64,000 nucleotides of DNA from an uncultured bacterium (GTDB lineage Bacteria; Desulfobacterota_D; UBA1144). Positions within the stretch are counted from its first letter, which is position 1, and every line of letters starts with the position of its first letter. Where the stretch lies: positions 1 through 64,000 of the forward strand of contig CAJWZP010000006.1 of NCBI GenBank assembly GCA_913050325.1. The letters run 5' to 3'. Shown here piece by piece: positions 23,985-33,644 of the stretch. Below the pieces are notes generated by a model, which searched no databases, was not told where the DNA came from, and saw only the letters and a program-made list of their open reading frames with translations. A program made the translations under genes and the position numbers.

Positions 23985-24049
23985 ATTTAATAATACCTTT
24001 TTTTAATTTATTAGTTTTTTAATTATTGATTAAACATTATAATAAATAT

Positions 24050-24895
24050 ATGAAAAAATTCACATCTACAGAAAATTATGTAACCACACCAGATTTAGAA
24101 TTAGCTGTAAATTCTGCGGTGACTCTTGAAAAACCTTTACTTGTAAAAGGTGAGCCTGGAACAGGAAAAACTTTATTAGCTGAAGAAATAGCTGTTGGAC
24201 TTGGCCTCAAAATTATCAAGTGGCATGTTAAATCAACAACGAAAGCCCAACAAGGATTATATGAATATGATGCAATAACTAGGTTAAGAGATTCACAACT
24301 AGGTGATTCTAGGGTAAAAGATATCTCTAATTATATTGTAAAAGGTAAATTATGGGAAGCTTTTAAAGCTGATGAAAAAGTTGTATTACTCATTGATGAA
24401 ATTGATAAGGCTGATATTGAATTTCCTAATGATTTATTACAAGAGCTTGATCGAATGGAATTTTATGTTTATGAGACTAAACAAAATATAGTTGCTAAAA
24501 ATAGGCCAATTGTTGTGATAACAAGTAACAATGAAAAAGAACTACCAGATGCTTTTTTAAGGAGGTGTATATTTCATTATATTAATTTCCCAGATAAAAA
24601 AACAATGGAATCTATAATAAATGTTCATTTTCCAAAGATTAAAAAGAAGTTGTTAACAGAAGCATTAAATATTTTCTTTGATTTAAGAGAAGTCCCAAAT
24701 CTTAAGAAATATCCATCAACCTCTGAATTGATTGATTGGATTAAACTTTTGTTATCTGATGATATTCCAAGGGAAATTCTCTTAGAACGTGACCAAACAA
24801 AAGCGATACCTCCTCTTCATGGTGCATTGTTGAAAAATGAGCAAGATGTTCAAATGTTAGAAAGGTTAAGGTTCATGCTTAGAAGAGAGAGCTAA
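24050..24895 (+). CDS. MoxR-type AAA+ ATPase
   Basis: 281 residues. Walker A GEPGTGKT, Walker B VVLLIDEIDKAD, sensor 1 VVITSNNEKELPDAFLRRC with the arginine finger region. This is the MoxR/CoxD branch, whose members act with a VWA-domain partner in chaperone-like metal insertion or complex assembly. The next gene is exactly such a partner, with the stop and start overlapping by one base. I place the start at the ATG at 24050 because the sequence before it is not conserved-looking. The client is unknown. Confidence 0.92.
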   Translation: MKKFTSTENYVTTPDLELAVNSAVTLEKPLLVKGEPGTGKTLLAEEIAVGLGLKIIKWHVKSTTKAQQGLYEYDAITRLRDSQLGDSRVKDISNYIVKGKLWEAFKADEKVVLLIDEIDKADIEFPNDLLQELDRMEFYVYETKQNIVAKNRPIVVITSNNEKELPDAFLRRCIFHYINFPDKKTMESIINVHFPKIKKKLLTEALNIFFDLREVPNLKKYPSTSELIDWIKLLLSDDIPREILLERDQTKAIPPLHGALLKNEQDVQMLERLRFMLRRES

Positions 24896-26070
24896 TGTTA
24901 ATAGAATTTTTTAATACTGTTAAGAAATCAGGAGTAAATGTCTCATTAAAAGAATTATTAGATTTAATAAAAGCTTTAAATTCAAATTTAATAAATAATA
25001 CAGTTCAGGATTTTTATTTTTTAAGTAGATCAATTATGGTTAAAGATGAAAGATTTTATGACAAATATGATAAAGCATTTGGTATTTTTTTTGAAGGTAT
25101 AGAAAATTTAGATTTTGATTTTGTAAAAAACGAGATACCGGAGGAATGGCTTAGAAAACAATTTGAAAAATCATTATCTAAGGAAGATAGAAAAAAAATT
25201 AAATCTCTTGCAGATTTGGAAGAACTAATGAAAAAATTTATGGAAACCTTTAACAAGCAAAGGGAAAGACACCAGGGAGGGAATAAATGGATTGGTACTG
25301 GTGGAACATCTCCTTATGGTGCTTATGGTTCAAATCCTTTTGGTATTAGAATTGGTCAAGATGGCAATAGAAATTTTTCTGCTGCTAAGGTTTGGGATGA
25401 AAGAAAATTTCAGAATCTTGATGATAGTATTGAAATAGGAACAAGAAACATCAAAGTAGCACTTAGAAAATTGAGAAAATTTGCTAGGATTCAAGGAAAT
25501 GAAGAACTTGATCTAGATCAAACTATAAAAAAAACAGCAGATAATGGTGGTTTTATTGATATTAAAACAAGACCAGAGAAAAGAAATCAAATTAAAGTCT
25601 TGATTTTCTTTGATATTGGAGGCTCCATGGACCCACATATTAATTTATGTGAAGAACTTTTTTCTGCAGCTAAATATGAATTTAAAAATTTAGAATTTTA
25701 TTATTTTCACAATTTTATATATGAAGGTGTTTGGAAAGATAATGATAGGCGTAATGAAACTATTAACCTTTATGACATAGTTAATAAGTATAGTAGTGAT
25801 TATAAAGTTATATTTGTTGGTGATGCATCTATGGGAATATACGAAGTGACACATATTAATGGCTCAGTAGAGCACTATAATGAAAAACCAGGTGAACACT
25901 ATTTCAAGATACTTAAAAGTCATTTCAATAAAATTGCATGGCTTAATCCAATAGAAATAGATGAATGGGATTATTCTCAATCTATAGACTATATTAGATA
26001 TTTATCTGAAAATAAAATGTTTCCACTAACTATTGATGGGATTAACAAAGCAGTCAAATTCTTAACCTAA
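24895..26070 (+). CDS. VWA-domain protein (CoxE-like), MoxR partner
   Basis: 391 residues. An N-terminal helical part is followed by a glycine-rich linker near residues 125-155 (GTGGTSPYGAYG) and a C-terminal von Willebrand A domain with a MIDAS-like motif (FFDIGGSMDPH), LYDIVNKY and VGDASMG. The first MIDAS residues are D-I-G-G-S, close to the DxSxS consensus but with glycine for the first serine. CoxE-like proteins pair with MoxR ATPases; no carbon-monoxide dehydrogenase genes are nearby, so its job is elsewhere. Convergent with crcB, directly adjacent. Confidence 0.88.
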   Translation: MLIEFFNTVKKSGVNVSLKELLDLIKALNSNLINNTVQDFYFLSRSIMVKDERFYDKYDKAFGIFFEGIENLDFDFVKNEIPEEWLRKQFEKSLSKEDRKKIKSLADLEELMKKFMETFNKQRERHQGGNKWIGTGGTSPYGAYGSNPFGIRIGQDGNRNFSAAKVWDERKFQNLDDSIEIGTRNIKVALRKLRKFARIQGNEELDLDQTIKKTADNGGFIDIKTRPEKRNQIKVLIFFDIGGSMDPHINLCEELFSAAKYEFKNLEFYYFHNFIYEGVWKDNDRRNETINLYDIVNKYSSDYKVIFVGDASMGIYEVTHINGSVEHYNEKPGEHYFKILKSHFNKIAWLNPIEIDEWDYSQSIDYIRYLSENKMFPLTIDGINKAVKFLT

Positions 26071-26475: not shown

Positions 26476-27366
26476 TCAATTTATTAAAGTAACTGATATA
26501 TCACTTATTTCCTTAGAAATTAAGATGTTTTGATTAACTACTAAATCATAAAACATATTAAAATCTACTGAAATATTTTTATCTTTTATAAGAGAATTAT
26601 GACTGATGTAAAAATAAATAATTACAATATCTTGAATTTTATTAATATTAATCTTATCAAAAATTTTTAAGAATTTTTTTTGAAAATTTTTAATTAATGA
26701 ACTAAATACCTTTATCCAATATTTTTTCTTTTCATTTTGATTCATAGATTTACTTTCTCTATAATAAGTTTTAATTTCACTTAAAAATTTATTATAAGTT
26801 TTTATGAAGATAATTTTATTAAATGGATTCAAATTCAACTCAAAACTATCATTTGTAAAAGAATGGATTATCCCATCACTATATAATTTAATACCATTTT
26901 GTTTAAATTTTTTTTCGCAAATAATTGATACAGTCTTAAGAAAATATTTAACTTTTTTAGTTTCATTCTGGTCATATTGATTAGTAAATATCATTAATCT
27001 CCAATACAATACAGCTCTTGAAATAATTTCAGATTCTACTGATAAATCAATTTTAGAATTCATATCCCAATCCTCTAATGTATAAAACAGGAATCTTGGC
27101 TCTTTAGTTTCTAGAAAATCAATTAAAGCAGGAACATTTTTAGTGAATGGATTAGCTAAATTATTGGGATGGACAGAACTATCTTTTCCCCACTTATATT
27201 TTTTTCTTCCTTTAGTAGAGGTTTTAGGTTGTATTCTCCATCCTAGATTAAAAGAACTTTTCTTATACTCAGCATTTGTTCCATATCTTTTGGCATGCTC
27301 CTCTTTATGATATTTTTCAAGTTCTTCTTTCATAATAGAGCCATTATAAAGTCTAAAAACAGTCAT
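26476..27366 (-). CDS. Orphan protein A, member of local NPF-TKEP-WR paralogue family
   Basis: 296 residues, not a family I know by name. Clearly related to the next gene upstream (27368): both have a basic start, then KGRKKYKWG / EGRKRYRWG, NPF (72-74), FLETKEPRFLFYTLEDW (84-100) and an AVLYWRL segment (YWR 121-123). The C-terminal half is lysine- and asparagine-rich and helical. No signal peptide or membrane segment. It sits one base after the paralogue at 27368, in a run with msrB and a glutaredoxin-like gene. Confidence 0.75.
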   Translation of the reverse strand: MTVFRLYNGSIMKEELEKYHKEEHAKRYGTNAEYKKSSFNLGWRIQPKTSTKGRKKYKWGKDSSVHPNNLANPFTKNVPALIDFLETKEPRFLFYTLEDWDMNSKIDLSVESEIISRAVLYWRLMIFTNQYDQNETKKVKYFLKTVSIICEKKFKQNGIKLYSDGIIHSFTNDSFELNLNPFNKIIFIKTYNKFLSEIKTYYRESKSMNQNEKKKYWIKVFSSLIKNFQKKFLKIFDKININKIQDIVIIYFYISHNSLIKDKNISVDFNMFYDLVVNQNILISKEISDISVTLIN

Positions 27367-27367
27367 T

Positions 27368-28300
27368 TTAAATACTCATCACCATTACATCATTTGTTTT
27401 AAATTTTTCAGGATTTTTATTTTTAAGAAGTTCTAGTTCTTTATAAATAGAATAAATTAATTTCCAATCGGTTATTAATCCTTTTGATGGTTCTTTTTTA
27501 TGAGGCTTAATAATATTATGTTTCCAAGATATATAAGAAGAAACAATTAAATCTAAATTTTGATAATTAAATGTTGATTTTAACTGAACCATATCTGGAA
27601 GATCTTTTTTTGTAAAAATTGATTTTAAAGTCCTAATCCAATACGTTTCTTTTTTTTTGAGATTACTCTCATTAATAATATCACGCTCATAAGGTAATAA
27701 TTTTTCTTTAAATTGATTAAAGAAATCATAAAATTTCTTAGGCTCATCATTATTAAAAGATATATACGCTGAATTTCTATTTCTATTTTTATAAGAACGA
27801 TCTTTTTGGATATTATATACATGAACCAAGCCGTCAGAGTATGGCCAAAAAGATTTTCTAGGCATTGTATCATCAATTATCTTACTAGCAGTTTTTAAAT
27901 AGAACTTAATTATTTTCTTTTCTTCATCATCTACAGATCCGGTCATTAGTCTTAATCTCCAATGTAATAAAGCCCTACAAGCTAATTCTTCTTCTACGGG
28001 ATTCAGTCTCTCTCTAAAGTTCCAATCTTCTAACATATAAAAAAAGAAACGAGTCTCCTTAGTTTCAACAAAATCTACAAAAGATGGAACTTTACAAGTT
28101 AATGGGTTCACCACATTAGTAGGGAAAAGATTTTTATTAGATCCCCATCTGTATCTTTTTCTTCCTTCAAGATTTGTTCTGGGTTGAAAGAATAGCCTCT
28201 GCTGAGCATACTGCCCTTTCTTTCTCTTTATTTTTTTTGCATTTTTATCAAGCTCTTTCTTTTTTTCTTGAGATGCAATCACTATTCCCATTATGGTCAT
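27368..28300 (-). CDS. Orphan protein B, member of local NPF-TKEP-WR paralogue family
   Basis: 310 residues. Same layout as protein A: basic N-terminus, EGRKRYRWG, NPL (65-67), VETKETRFFFYMLEDW (78-93), ALLHWRL (HWR 113-115), YSDGLVH and a long helical tail. Cytoplasmic by appearance. 35 bases after msrB and one base before protein A, so likely one transcript. Function unknown; the shared SDG[IL][IV]H segment with protein A is another conserved patch. Confidence 0.75.
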   Translation of the reverse strand: MTIMGIVIASQEKKKELDKNAKKIKRKKGQYAQQRLFFQPRTNLEGRKRYRWGSNKNLFPTNVVNPLTCKVPSFVDFVETKETRFFFYMLEDWNFRERLNPVEEELACRALLHWRLRLMTGSVDDEEKKIIKFYLKTASKIIDDTMPRKSFWPYSDGLVHVYNIQKDRSYKNRNRNSAYISFNNDEPKKFYDFFNQFKEKLLPYERDIINESNLKKKETYWIRTLKSIFTKKDLPDMVQLKSTFNYQNLDLIVSSYISWKHNIIKPHKKEPSKGLITDWKLIYSIYKELELLKNKNPEKFKTNDVMVMSI

Positions 28301-28335
28301 AGATTAATTTTAACATTTTTCAACAATTAAATTAA

Positions 28336-28716
28336 TTAAGACTTAATAAATTTTAATGAAGCAGAATTTATGCAATACCTTAAGCCAGTCGGTCCTGGTC
28401 CATCATCAAATACATGTCCCAGGTGAGCACCGCAATTTTTACAAGAAACTTCAATTCTAATCATCATATGTGAGGAATCTTCCTTTAAATCAATGGATTC
28501 TTTATTAAAACAATCGTAAAAACTAGGCCATCCAGTTCCAGAATCAAATTTAGTTTTTGAAGTAAACAATACAGTGTCACAGCATACACATTCATAAAGA
28601 CCATCAAGTTTACAATCATATAAATCACCAGAAAAAGGTGGTTCAGTTCCAGCTTCTTGAGTAACATGATATTGAACTGGTGAAAGTTTATTCTTTAAAT
28701 CATCTTTTTTGTTCAT
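28336..28716 (-). CDS. msrB: Peptide methionine (R)-S-oxide reductase MsrB
   Basis: Repairs the R-epimer of oxidised methionine. 126 residues. Zinc cysteines CVCC and [23 protein letters not shown] and the catalytic [11 protein letters not shown]. The start overlaps the end of the glutaredoxin-like gene by 17 bases, which ties it to a possible electron donor. Flanked by the paralogous orphan genes. Confidence 0.97.
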
Positions 28717-29077
28717 TATTTAACTCCAAGTAATCAATGAAGAAATTAATAATATCATTAGATTCGTAAAGCCATTTATTTTCATCATTATTGAATCGAA
28801 GGCATGGTACTTGCAATTTCCCACCTCCATTTATAAGTTCATTAGCAAAATCTTTATTTCTTCTAGCATCTTTAACCTTAATTATAATATTATTCTTTTT
28901 CATAAACCTTCTGACTTTTACACAAAATGGACAAGCTCTAAATTCATATATTTCCATTTTTTTTACTTTATTTTGGATAAATTCAAGCTTTTCAGAACTG
29001 AAATTTAGAGGCTTTGGAGAGGTAAGCCAATCGAAAAAGAGAATTATTTTTCCTAAAACAAACCTTATAATATTCAT
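28700..29077 (-). CDS. Glutaredoxin-like protein with N-terminal membrane helix
   Basis: 125 residues. An N-terminal hydrophobic, amphipathic stretch ([14 protein letters not shown]) precedes a glutaredoxin/GST-N fold with the redox motif CPFC ([14 protein letters not shown]), cis-proline region LQVPCLRF and [11 protein letters not shown]. This combination is common in gammaproteobacterial and related genomes. Its start overlaps the upstream orphan by four bases and its end overlaps msrB, so it may supply reducing power to MsrB (inference). Confidence 0.85.
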
Positions 29078-29490
29078 TTATCTTTCCCCGGGAAAGAGCT
29101 TAATGCTTGCCCTACACTTTCCAATAAAGACTTTGCAACCTCAGATTTCTCATCTCCATTAATAATAATATTTCTCCAAGAACTTATGACATCAGAAAAA
29201 ATATTTTCTGTTAATGGGTTACATATATCAAATGAAGCTTCAGAGTTCCAGGTCTCTAGAGCAAGAAGGAAATATCCTGGTAATTTTTTATTGAAAAATT
29301 TCGCAAGGTATGGATTTTTTCTTGCAAATTCTTGCCATTCTTTGATTTCCATTGTCCTTATATTTTCTGGAAATAAATCAGCCCTGTCATAATATTTATA
29401 CTTTTTCATATGCAGTTCAGCATCAGTTTCATTAATCATTGTTCTACCAATGACTGCAACACTAGAACCACCTGTACATTCTCGACTCAT
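29074..29490 (-). CDS. Orphan protein C, short member of local paralogue family
   Basis: 138 residues. Shares with proteins A, B and D the patch YFLLALETWN, an NPL (91-93) and SSWRNIIINGDEKSEVAKSLLE (SWR 104-106). The N-terminus (SRECTGGSSVAVIG) has one cysteine. No signal peptide. First gene of the minus-strand run C, glutaredoxin-like, msrB, B, A. Divergent from the DUF4396 gene. Function unknown. Confidence 0.7.
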   Translation of the reverse strand: MSRECTGGSSVAVIGRTMINETDAELHMKKYKYYDRADLFPENIRTMEIKEWQEFARKNPYLAKFFNKKLPGYFLLALETWNSEASFDICNPLTENIFSDVISSWRNIIINGDEKSEVAKSLLESVGQALSSFPGKDK

Positions 29491-29607
29491 AATATTTATA
29501 GGTTATTATAACTACTGTTATGATTCAAGATACTATATTTTATTATTTCACAATAACATGCATCTTAATGGTAGTTATTATAATTTATCTAGTGAAAAGG
29601 AAATAAT

Positions 29608-30024
29608 ATGTGGAAGTGTAAACATACTTGGAAAAAATCATCAATTAATACAATGTGGTGCTTAATAGGATGCTCTATTGGAGATTTAGGAACAATTTTT
29701 TATTTTCAAAATATAGAACATTCCCTTTCAATTATGAATGTAATGATTATTGCAATTTTAGCAGGCTTAACAACTAGCATTATTCTTGAAACAATAATAC
29801 TATTAAAGGATTTTAAATTTTTGCAATCTTTAAAAATTGCTCTTGGTATGAGCCTAATTAGCATGATTGGAATGGAAATAGCAATGAATTCAGTGGACTT
29901 TATTCTAAATGGTAAGGCTGTTATAAATATTCAAACCATCGGTCCAGTTCTTTTAGCTGGATTTTTAACACCACTACCATATAACTATTGGAGACTTAAA
30001 AAGTTTGGAATTTCTTGTCATTAA
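29608..30024 (+). CDS. DUF4396 membrane protein
   Basis: 138 residues with about four hydrophobic segments. NTMWCLIGCSIGDLGTI, LAGLTTSIILETIIL, MSLISMIGMEIAMNSVDF and the ending LTPLPYNYWRLKKFGISCH are the DUF4396 pattern. Function of the family is not established; copies often occur near metal-handling genes. Starts after AAAGG. Convergent with protein D, nine bases apart. A ten-base direct repeat flanks the region upstream. Confidence 0.88.
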   Translation: MWKCKHTWKKSSINTMWCLIGCSIGDLGTIFYFQNIEHSLSIMNVMIIAILAGLTTSIILETIILLKDFKFLQSLKIALGMSLISMIGMEIAMNSVDFILNGKAVINIQTIGPVLLAGFLTPLPYNYWRLKKFGISCH

Positions 30025-30032
30025 TAAAATAA

Positions 30033-30623
30033 TTAGGCACTTTTCATTTCACGATACTTTCTTTCTTCTTCAGTAAAAGCACCATCAGCTACTGGAATTA
30101 TAGAAGGAATCAAGGCACCACCTAATCTTAAAAAACATTTCTCCAGATAACTTTGGGCTTCTCCAGCATTAAAAGCAGCTCTTTTAAAAGTTAAATATGA
30201 CCTCCAGTAATTTATAGTAGACCATACAACTGTAGGAGGTGTTACTTTATCTAATAATTCGTTATAAGTCCCAATATGTGCCATAGAAAGAATTGTTATA
30301 TCAATTATTTCGTCACCTTGCATTGTATTGGGATCCCAAGATTCAGGATCTTCAATAACCCTACCCTGCAATAAAGAGATATCATGCATAACGGCTTCTA
30401 TTAATTTATTAGGATCTTTAGTGGTTAAATATTCTTCTAAGCAATCATAAGCAACTAATTTAAAAGGATTATGACTGTGATAACCTTCACCTTTCTCACT
30501 TGTCATTTGGACATTACCTTTCATTTTAGGTCTAAATAATGTCTTATCAAGTAAACCATCGGGATATATAGATTGAACTATTGTTTCTTCTGCTTTTTTT
30601 TCTTTAAAATCAATACCTTGCAT
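30033..30623 (-). CDS. Orphan protein D, member of local paralogue family
   Basis: 196 residues, acidic overall, no signal peptide. Shared family patches: NPF (52-54), YLTTKDPNKLIEAVMHD (65-81) and INYWRSYLT (YWR 139-141) followed by a helix YLEKCFLRLGGAL. Compared with A and B it lacks the basic N-terminus and the long tail, so it may be nearest to the core domain. Function unknown. Confidence 0.72.
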   Translation of the reverse strand: MQGIDFKEKKAEETIVQSIYPDGLLDKTLFRPKMKGNVQMTSEKGEGYHSHNPFKLVAYDCLEEYLTTKDPNKLIEAVMHDISLLQGRVIEDPESWDPNTMQGDEIIDITILSMAHIGTYNELLDKVTPPTVVWSTINYWRSYLTFKRAAFNAGEAQSYLEKCFLRLGGALIPSIIPVADGAFTEEERKYREMKSA

Positions 30624-30689
30624 AGAGTTTATTATACCGACATTTAATTTAAATCAAATAAAATTAACAATATTAATTATAATAAGTAT

Positions 30690-30773
30690 ATGGATAAAAA
30701 AATTTTTGGGTTCATATTCCTGTCAACTTTTATAGTTATGATGTATTTTTTGTATAAAATAGTTATTCATTAG
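30690..30773 (+). CDS. Possible 27-residue single-helix membrane peptide
   Basis: The frame MDKKIFGFIF...VIH fills part of the gap between protein D (minus strand) and the 92-residue gene. It has one hydrophobic helix with a basic start and end. There is no strong ribosome site (AATAAGTAT). It could be a chance frame in AT-rich sequence. Confidence 0.3.
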   Translation: MDKKIFGFIFLSTFIVMMYFLYKIVIH

Positions 30774-30775
30774 AA

Positions 30776-31054
30776 TTAATTACTACCATTCCAGAAGCTT
30801 TTTAATTCTTTTATTAGTATTTTTCTGCCATCTTTGGTTTTTAATAGTGTTATGGATCGCCTGAAGCTATTATAGTAATTTTTCAATTTCAATCTTCCAT
30901 CGCTGGATGAACTCAAATATATTCCATATATTAAAAAAAAGGGAAGCAATAAAGGTATGCCCATAGGCATAGCTAAAATAAATATAAAAATTCTATTTAG
31001 AATTTTTTTAAATTTTGAATAAAAATTTTTAAAGTTCGAATTCAAGCTGGTCAT
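30776..31054 (-). CDS. Small membrane-associated protein of unknown function
   Basis: 92 residues: basic N-terminus, one or two hydrophobic stretches (IFIFILAMPMGIPLLLPFFLIYGIY is split by MPMGIP), then a basic soluble tail. No family recognised. The start overlaps the metalloprotease gene by 26 bases, so the pair is probably co-translated. Confidence 0.55.
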   Translation of the reverse strand: MTSLNSNFKNFYSKFKKILNRIFIFILAMPMGIPLLLPFFLIYGIYLSSSSDGRLKLKNYYNSFRRSITLLKTKDGRKILIKELKSFWNGSN

Positions 31055-31796
31055 TTGGATTTTTTACACCTAATTTTTTATCGGAAGAAATTTTTTTATT
31101 AAAAGATCCTAAATCATTTTTGAACATGGAACATATATGATCATTCTTTTTAAGCCAATTTTCATACTTAATATATTCCGGCATCATTTTTTCTACCTCA
31201 ATCCAATAATCACTTGAATGATTTGGATGAACAATGTGAGCTAACTCATGAACAACCAAATATGAAATCACTTCATGTGGAACTAATATTGATCGCCAAC
31301 TGAAATTTAGAACACCATTCCCTGAGCAGGATCCCCACTGAGAATGTGCATCACGAATTTTTATTTTTGTATAATTGATATTATATAATTTTGAAAATCT
31401 ATTAGCTAAATCTAAAATATAAGTTCTAGCATTTTCTTTATACCAGTCTATAAATACTTTGTTTGCTACTTTCAAAAAAGATTTAGAAAGAAAAAAGGTT
31501 CCATCAACATACTTTAGTGGAATAGATTTATTTTCTACAATTTTGAGAGGTCTCTGTTTTCCTAAGTATAGGAACTTCTCACCTTCTTCATATTTTTTAT
31601 GCAAGTCATTTAAATATTTTGCCTTTGTAATTTGCTGAGTTCTAAGTAAGTAAAATTTTTTTTCTTCCAGAAATTTTTCTATATTCTCATTTGTCTCTTC
31701 AATAGGAGCGCGAACAATTATATATCCCTCGACAGAAATTTGAATTTCAAGTGATTTTCTATCAGACCTAATGATTTGATCAACTTTAATTGACAT
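31029..31796 (-). CDS. YgjP-like (SprT-related) zinc metallopeptidase
   Basis: 255 residues from the ATG at 31796 (an in-frame ATG at 31817 is less likely). The zinc motif HELAH followed by HPNHSSDYW and, earlier, RDAHSQWGSCSGNGVLNFSWR are the signature of the YgjP/M48-like WLM-adjacent family found widely in bacteria. Physiological substrate unknown. Followed by the 92-residue membrane protein with overlap. Confidence 0.87.
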   Translation of the reverse strand: MSIKVDQIIRSDRKSLEIQISVEGYIIVRAPIEETNENIEKFLEEKKFYLLRTQQITKAKYLNDLHKKYEEGEKFLYLGKQRPLKIVENKSIPLKYVDGTFFLSKSFLKVANKVFIDWYKENARTYILDLANRFSKLYNINYTKIKIRDAHSQWGSCSGNGVLNFSWRSILVPHEVISYLVVHELAHIVHPNHSSDYWIEVEKMMPEYIKYENWLKKNDHICSMFKNDLGSFNKKISSDKKLGVKNPNDQLEFEL

Positions 31797-31850
31797 TTTA
31801 TGGCTACTATAACACATAAAAAAATAAAAATTAACAATAATTTTAAGTAT

Positions 31851-32153
31851 TTATGAAACTATTATAAAAATAACTGTCATAAATGAACCAAAGACCAATC
31901 CAACTATTCCGGCAGCCAGTAATTCTGTTTGAGTTTTTGTCAAAGGTGGTGGTTTCGGAAAGGAATCTGAATCTAAGAATTCAAATAAACCAATATGAGC
32001 AAGAATGATTTTAGTTGGTATTGCAAATGCGACACTCAACATAATCATTTTTCCCCACATAGGAACAGTTTCATAAAAAACAGGCTCTTCTGCTAATGCT
32101 GAAATATTTATCAAAAAAGAAAAAATTAAAAAATTAATAATAAAAACTCTCAT
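31851..32153 (-). CDS. Small exported/membrane protein of unknown function
   Basis: 100 residues from the ATG at 32153 (an ATG at 32162 is an alternative). Signal-peptide-like N-terminus (RVFIINFLIFSFLINISALAEE), then two hydrophobic helices around residues 35-52 and 78-98 separated by SFPKPPPLTKTQ. Not recognised. Divergent from the gene at 32197. Confidence 0.55.
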   Translation of the reverse strand: MRVFIINFLIFSFLINISALAEEPVFYETVPMWGKMIMLSVAFAIPTKIILAHIGLFEFLDSDSFPKPPPLTKTQTELLAAGIVGLVFGSFMTVIFIIVS

Positions 32154-32196
32154 ACAACACATTGAATTATAATAATAAATATAGGAAAATCAATAT

Positions 32197-32943
32197 ATGC
32201 CAGCTTGCTATTTACAGGTTTATGAAAACCTTGAAAAATCTTCAAAGAATAAAGAATATTGGAGAGAATATACATCATTTTATGAGAGTTATTGGGGAGG
32301 TCCTACTTCACCTTATGGTATTTGGTTTGGAAGCGAATATGAAAACTTTGAGAAATCTTTAGCTGATCATTTAAACATGGAAATTAAAGACTTGAAACAA
32401 TGTTTATTTATAAAAGAAAATGACGAGTACTATATATGTCCATCTGATTTAAATGAAAATAGGCAAAACTATTCATTTTTAGTAAATAATCTGGTTCCAA
32501 TCCATTGGCTCATGTTATTTAATGAAAATCAAAAAAAAGTTTTTAAGACTCATTGGGGATTTGGTGCTATTCATTACACAAGCACAATAATTGATAGTTT
32601 ATCGTCTATTAATGAATTTTTTAATTTAAATATAAATCAAAATAAAAATGAAAAATTCACAGAGAATTTTAAAAATATATTGGCTGACCTGAAAGATACA
32701 GAAAACTGGCTAACTGGATTTGATAAAGATAGTATTTTAATACTTAACTTTGGAGATTTATTAGCAAGCCTGCCTCAAAACAGTTTAGATAAAGAGGATT
32801 CAGTGAGTATATTAAATGATATTAAAGAACTTATTAAAGAAGAATCTTATAATGAAGCGGAAAAAGTTTTTAATTTTTTAATTGAAAGATGGTCAAAAAT
32901 TGAATTTGTAAATCAAAAAAATGAAAGTAATTTAGATAATTAA
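32197..32943 (+). CDS. Protein of unknown function, 248 residues
   Basis: Soluble, acidic, aromatic-rich N-terminus (EYWREYTSFYESYWGGPTSP and PYGIWFGSEYENFEK) and a helical C-terminus. No motif I recognise. A segment IHWLMLFNENQKKVFKTHWGFGAIHY is striking for its tryptophans and histidines. Long clean frame with a start eight bases after AGGAAA. Convergent with the gene at 32946, three bases apart. Confidence 0.65.
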   Translation: MPACYLQVYENLEKSSKNKEYWREYTSFYESYWGGPTSPYGIWFGSEYENFEKSLADHLNMEIKDLKQCLFIKENDEYYICPSDLNENRQNYSFLVNNLVPIHWLMLFNENQKKVFKTHWGFGAIHYTSTIIDSLSSINEFFNLNINQNKNEKFTENFKNILADLKDTENWLTGFDKDSILILNFGDLLASLPQNSLDKEDSVSILNDIKELIKEESYNEAEKVFNFLIERWSKIEFVNQKNESNLDN

Positions 32944-32945
32944 TT

Positions 32946-33644
32946 TTATTTCTTTCCGAGTACTTTTTTTTCAATCCATTTCATTGGTATTAATTTGGGT
33001 GGAACTAGTAATTGGTTTTTATCTTTAACAAAGTCATTCTTGTATTCTAAACTCCATTTATAACTTAAGAAATATTGAGTAATTTTCAGAGTTAACTCTT
33101 TTATAGTTCTAATTGATGACCACTCTTCTATCTTGTTTTCCAAAGGAATTATTTTAGCCTTTGAAGGGTTAAACAGTGTTCTTAGAGCAAAGTTCATCTC
33201 CATTTCATTTTGCGGTTTCAATTCCTTTTTCATATCAGAAATCATTTTATATATATATTTATATGTTCCTACAACATGCTCATTACTAAATGGAAGCTTT
33301 CTTCTTTTTTTATTTGGATAATCATGTCCTCTCATTCCCTCTGCAAATTTAATTATATTTTGTTTATCCTCTGGATAAGGATATTTTGCTTGAAGGGACC
33401 ATGCTATAATCTGGTATCTAATTGTCGGGTGATCAAGGACAATTGGATGCTCTTTTATAGCTAATGCCAAATGTAATGGATTCTTTGTTTTCTGAAAATC
33501 TCTGAAATACTTACAGAAAAAGAGCCAAGATAAAATACCTGTCTTGCCTTCATGTACTCTTTCAACAAAATTTTTAATCTCTTTGAAAAAATCATCACTT
33601 AAAATAACTGAATCTATCCATGGATCTTCCTTTATTTTTCCCAT
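32946..33644 (-). CDS. Orphan protein E, distant match to local paralogue family
   Basis: 232 residues, helical, basic C-terminus. It contains KYFRDFQKTKNPLHLALAI (TKNP 53-56), which resembles the TK[DE]P helix of proteins A, B and D, but lacks a clear WR segment, so membership is tentative. 19 bases after protein F and probably in the fumC transcript. Confidence 0.6.
   Translation of the reverse strand: MGKIKEDPWIDSVILSDDFFKEIKNFVERVHEGKTGILSWLFFCKYFRDFQKTKNPLHLALAIKEHPIVLDHPTIRYQIIAWSLQAKYPYPEDKQNIIKFAEGMRGHDYPNKKRRKLPFSNEHVVGTYKYIYKMISDMKKELKPQNEMEMNFALRTLFNPSKAKIIPLENKIEEWSSIRTIKELTLKITQYFLSYKWSLEYKNDFVKDKNQLLVPPKLIPMKWIEKKVLGKK

Follow-up and report, generated by a model that had tools for sequence, protein, structure and literature searches.

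A lineage-restricted family of paralogous helical proteins in pelagic Candidatus Dadabacteria

The window analyzed here (the 64,000-nucleotide stretch at positions 1 to 64,000 of contig CAJWZP010000006.1) encodes several members of a new lineage-restricted paralogous family, previously undescribed in the libraries we searched. Three proteins of the window, P1, P2 and P3, and a fourth encoded elsewhere in the genome, P6, almost certainly form one family by profile comparison; two further window proteins, P4 and P5, are probable members. As far as searched, the family is confined to one bacterial family of pelagic Candidatus Dadabacteria. The host genome is 1.0 Mb in size and 92.7% complete, and the GC content of the window is 24-32%. 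Its bacterial family, hereafter family f1, comprises 14 genomes of 0.8-1.1 Mb each, including the host, and is taken as the pelagic Dadabacteria described as having streamlined genomes of ~1.2 Mb with "limited/no gene duplication events" (PMC8115339). The class was sampled with 58 genomes, 44 of which lie outside family f1 and range from 1.2 to 4 Mb.

Table 1. Family members and neighboring genes, numbered from the first letter of the window except for P6
Feature	Position	Strand	Description
P1	26476..27366	-	296 aa; member of the family, in tandem with its paralogue P2; TK patch 27098-27117
P2	27368..28300	-	310 aa; member of the family, full-length: a helical core, then small strands and a C-terminal half made of helices
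MsrB (methionine sulfoxide reductase B)	28336..28716	-	PF01641 match at 28345-28686; between glutaredoxin and P2
Glutaredoxin with CPFC	28700..29077	-	PF00462, E=1.9e-9; overlaps P3 and MsrB
P3	29074..29490	-	138 aa; core domain only
P4	30033..30623	-	196 aa; probable member; insert of ~40 residues in core; TK patch 30412-30431
P5	32946..33644	-	232 aa; probable member; TK patch 33478-33497
Orphan protein adjoining P5	33664..34398	-	244 aa; restricted to family f1
P6	G000:C8:44254-44967		241 aa; on another contig of the host genome; found with the P3 model; also recorded as L037 2552-3277

Sequence patches and a common helical core

A preliminary description of this region had singled out five open reading frames whose products share short patches, and had proposed that a single helical domain was duplicated in this lineage and then diverged. 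All five (P1-P5) are present at the given positions on the minus strand with the patches described, and all are conserved genes in related genomes. P1 carries NPF72, FLETKEP84 and YWR121; P2 carries NPL65, FVETKET77 and HWR113; and P4 carries NPF52, YLTTKDP65 and YWR139. The TKNP reported for P5 lies within FQKTKNP50. P3 has the expected SWR104, an LALETW patch and an NPL, the last of which (residue 91) is located downstream of the TK-like patch and not upstream. Among the 69 genes of the window, the pattern [FY][LVQ]xTK[DEN][PT] is confined to four of the five named proteins, and P1, P2 and P4 alone have the full NP..TK..WR pattern. The DNA form of [FY]xxTK[DENK]P has 6 matches across the whole 1.0 Mb genome; those in a real gene frame are found only in P1, P4, P5 and P6, and the other two sit in very short open frames. 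The TK patterns were composed after the sequences had been seen, and their rarity is supporting evidence rather than an independent test. The suggestion that NP[FL], TK[DE]P and WR together mark the family holds for P1, P2 and P4, but NP[FL] falls outside the shared pattern: its order is reversed in P3, where it does not align, it is missing from the equivalent place in P6, and it is frequent in other window proteins. We therefore discarded NP[FL] as a family mark.

Sequence and profile comparison placed P1, P2 and P3 firmly together. By BLAST, P1 and P2 are 35% identical across 191 residues (E=6e-39), and profiles built with their orthologues from family f1 matched with E=8e-57 (hhalign). In the same type of comparison P3 matched P1 with E=6e-8 and P2 with E=5e-7, while P6, outside the window, matched P1, P2 and P3 with E-values of 8e-11, 9e-12 and 9e-12. 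Pairwise profile E-values among the four thus span 8e-57 to 5e-7 over the core. A combined P1/P2/P3/P6 model matched exactly these four genes in the host genome. The duplication envisaged in the preliminary description is firmly supported for P1, P2 and P3 and extends to P6; neither of the outcomes that would have spoken against it, a lack of profile similarity or matches to different known families, was observed.

A multiple alignment of P1, P2, P3 and P6 revealed a common order of elements: FP, the TK.P helix, the YWR helix and an [IV]G helix. In fuller form the core reads FP, an [FY]L.TK.P.[YF]LF..[LI]E helix, an [IV].YWR helix and then L..[IV]G..L. P3 lacks the TK letters, with NKKLP instead, yet aligns at the TK.P position. 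The combined alignment has just three invariant positions, Pro59, Glu90 and Trp113 (P2 numbering). In P1, P2 and P6 a Y..G..H turn comes after the core and leads into a C-terminal half that is helical, and the P6-P2 alignment extends over 210 columns, so that P1, P2 and P6 have a common full-length architecture and P3 consists of the core only. HPPRRC is an invariant motif of P6, which also ends in a C-terminal VDYW.P.KKR. For P2, AlphaFold2 gave a fairly confident model (pLDDT 81, pTM 0.69). It predicts that the shared core is made of helices 71-79, 82-91, 100-119 and 124-148, with the TK patch between the first two helices and HWR in the third; short strands at 150-181 follow, and then the helical C-terminal half. 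The model of P4 (pLDDT 45) was too poor for superposition.

Membership of P4 and P5

The preliminary description had placed all five proteins in one family. For P4 and P5 this claim is probable, at profile E-values of 0.0004-0.006. Against a merged profile, P4 (E=0.006) and P5 (E=0.004) came next after the confirmed members, and profiles of control families from the neighborhood, built alike, all gave E>=0.059. The real score was matched by 1 of 200 column shuffles for P4 and by 0 of 200 for P5. With core-only profiles the E-values were 0.0027 for P4 and 0.0004 for P5, and the real score was reached by 0 of 100 shuffles in each case. Among individual comparisons, P4 matched P6 with E=0.0038 or lower and P3 with E=0.0019, and P5 matched P6 with E=0.008-0.011. 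Searches of 865 open reading frames with the P4 HMM returned P3 and P6 as the first matches other than P4 itself, and the P5 HMM returned P6 first. The alignments of both proteins land on the same elements, [FY]xxTKxPxxL followed by [IV]xxW, and LGGAL of P4 aligns with [IV]GxAL of P3 and P6.

An alternative is that only P1, P2, P3 and P6 are related, and that P4 and P5 are unrelated orphans of the neighborhood whose TK.P and W patches are short helix motifs that arose by convergence. In keeping with this alternative, neither pairwise BLAST nor single-family profiles gave a signal between P4 or P5 and P1 or P2 individually, the combined model did not list P4 or P5 in the host genome, the E-values are modest, and the P4 orthologues of genus g2 have TENP in place of TKDP. 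By contrast, chance similarity of short motifs does not readily account for P4 and P5 leading the matches after the confirmed members in forward searches, and P4 also in reverse; for scores above those of 99-100% of column shuffles; or for alignments that extend past the TK patch, as into the LGGAL helix of P4. We consider convergence unlikely. Although the E-values are below conventional significance, these comparisons suggest that P4 probably belongs to the family and that P5, with slightly less assurance, probably does too.

Distribution, gene order and duplication history

The combined model matched 14 of 14 genomes of family f1; P4 was detected in 12 and P5 in 13 of the 14, and gaps of single members occur in incomplete or fragmented MAGs. 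No credible match to family members was found in the 44 class genomes outside family f1, the combined model had no further matches in 387 genomes of 317 genera, and P1, P2, P3 and P6 were absent from ~330 genomes more distant than the class. A P6 search of genome contigs returned only 12 loci, all from this bacterial group. No match exceeded a curated cut-off in Pfam-A, NCBIfam or PHROGs, and the PDB sequences contained no credible match. The best matches of the P2 model had E-values of 3.2 among PDB folds and 0.13 among BFVD viral folds, neither of which is a match. Five scans of IMG/VR gave none, nor did 50,697 phage genomes for P2 or P4. PADLOC matches of P3 to Csm3 (E 0.02) and of the 33664 protein to PglZ (E 0.0014) were weak and partial and were set aside.

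Two other origins were weighed against these results. In one, the family is a known cellular one, such as an enzyme or binding protein, whose divergence in a rapidly evolving, AT-rich lineage hides it from sequence comparison and whose fold would be recognizable in the AlphaFold DB. Streamlined AT-rich genomes diverge strongly, the fold comparison of the P2 model was confined to PDB and the viral folds of BFVD, and the strongly conserved Y..G..H turn (with HPPRRC in P6) could be a binding or active site. Set against this are the lack of matches in Pfam, NCBIfam and PDB sequences, and a P2 model that is fairly confident and finds no counterpart among PDB folds; we regard this origin as rather unlikely. 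In the other origin, the pelagic family's ancestor took up phage or mobile-element genes on one occasion, and these were domesticated and later duplicated; this would fit the presence of members in one bacterial family while the remaining families of the class have none. The lack of matches in all viral sources (IMG/VR, phage genomes for P2 and P4, PHROGs and viral folds) and the stable gene order around the P genes across family f1 make it very improbable.

Gene order is conserved across family f1 wherever contigs reach. Within that limit the run P3-glutaredoxin-MsrB-P2-P1 keeps one order; its neighboring genes overlap or lie no more than a few tens of bases apart, and P1 is followed by what we take, from reading its sequence, to be a CrcB-like gene. 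Each paralogue is kept across family f1 as its own orthologous line and not as interchangeable copies. Orthologues of the same genus are identical to the window protein at ~91-92% of positions for P4, 74-82% for P3, 77% for P5, 66-71% for P2 and 51-59% for P1, compared with ~77% for a fumarase-like neighbor and 89-94% for the AAA+ ATPase, indicating that P4 is among the most constrained genes of the region and P1 among the least.

Genera g1 and g4 carry P1, the g4 copy being truncated to 177 aa. In g2, genome G009 carries a pair of P2-like genes, only one of which encodes a P1-like N-terminus, and G005 carries one; a g3 genome (G006) has one longer copy of 399 aa with a P1-like N-terminus. The two adjacent P2-like copies of G009 (L046, G009:C9) have very similar cores and different N-termini, which suggests gene conversion between tandem copies. 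The tree (one stray VWA sequence in it was disregarded) and the N-termini favor an older duplication over a recent, within-genus origin of the P1/P2 pair and fit an old duplication followed by loss and gene conversion.

The orphan protein adjoining P5 is likewise strongly constrained, with 68-89% conservation among the pelagic genomes, and no other member of the class has it; it has no Pfam or NCBIfam match and is not homologous to P1-P6 by profile. Three more conserved orphan genes (30776-31054, 31851-32162 and 32197-32943) have orthologues in the same order across family f1. Two of the three resemble small membrane proteins, and the 32197 gene is split into two overlapping frames in L019 (11883-12628). 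P6 adjoins peptidyl-prolyl isomerase-like and acyl-CoA dehydrogenase-like genes in conserved order. At 24026-26070, on the plus strand and convergent with the P1/P2 operon, lies a highly conserved gene pair for an AAA+ (MoxR-like) ATPase (83-94%) and a VWA protein (73-87%). We did not retain this pair as a partner of the P family, since its strand is opposite and nothing observed connects the two. Its NCBIfam matches to MadB/MadC were weak and far below cut-off.

Possible function and relation to known systems

We propose that one helical domain multiplied within the pelagic Dadabacteria family to give P1, P2, P3, the unlinked P6 and, very probably, P4 and P5. The paralogues might then act in a protein assembly of the cytoplasm, as soluble subunits or adaptors that cannot replace one another, a role we put forward tentatively and with low confidence. 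In such an assembly the helix with the conserved Trp would pack the core, the helical module would bind proteins, and the variable, oppositely charged remainders would give each copy its partner. By charge the members fall into two sets: P1, P2 and P5 are basic (pI ~9.6), and P3, P4 and P6 are acidic (pI 5.1-5.5). The P3-P2-P1 branch could have a part in the repair of thiols and methionine sulfoxide, since its genes alternate with that of a glutaredoxin, whose ortholog is found within the class only in family f1, and with the only MsrB gene, the sole SelR match in the genome. We rate this putative redox link as unlikely. P4, P5 and P6 lie outside the glutaredoxin-MsrB run, and gene neighborhood is a weak sign of common function at very high coding density. 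P1 is absent or truncated in some genera and is thus not a required subunit. In the combined alignment no Cys is conserved through the family, whereas thiol-redox or Msr enzymes would keep a catalytic Cys in all members.

In its strongest form the proposal would be of a new fold and of a new multi-part system, in which six paralogues serve as non-interchangeable subunits of a previously undescribed assembly in the cytoplasm, with its origin in pelagic Dadabacteria and its persistence due to selection. We hold this improbable as a whole; if true, selection retains such an assembly in genomes that shed duplicates. A paralogous family of four to six members, mostly within 7 kb, is in itself an exception to the limited or absent duplication reported for these genomes (PMC8115339). 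In part it is as conserved as the nearby AAA+ ATPase and probably does something basic in the lineage. Orphan families are common; what is unusual here is duplication together with strong conservation in a genome type reported without duplicates. Being small and well defined, the family lends itself to structural and interaction studies, and the origin and duplication of new protein domains in streamlined bacteria could be examined on it as a test case.

Comparison with known systems places the family as follows. The likeness to gene pairs for MsrB/glutaredoxin repair is an analogy by neighborhood alone, with P3, P2 and P1 in one tight run with them; the P proteins show no match to either fold family and lack a family-wide Cys. 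With the named families of Pfam-A, NCBIfam, PHROGs, PADLOC and PDB they share being mostly helical soluble proteins and nothing more, as none of the profiles passed a cut-off and the fold searches gave no match. A further parallel is with taxonomically restricted paralogous families of unknown function, which are alike in confinement to one family, in having no outside homologues and in having several paralogues, partly in tandem. Unlike these, the P family sits in streamlined genomes with limited or no duplication (PMC8115339), and some of its copies are conserved like their housekeeping neighbors.
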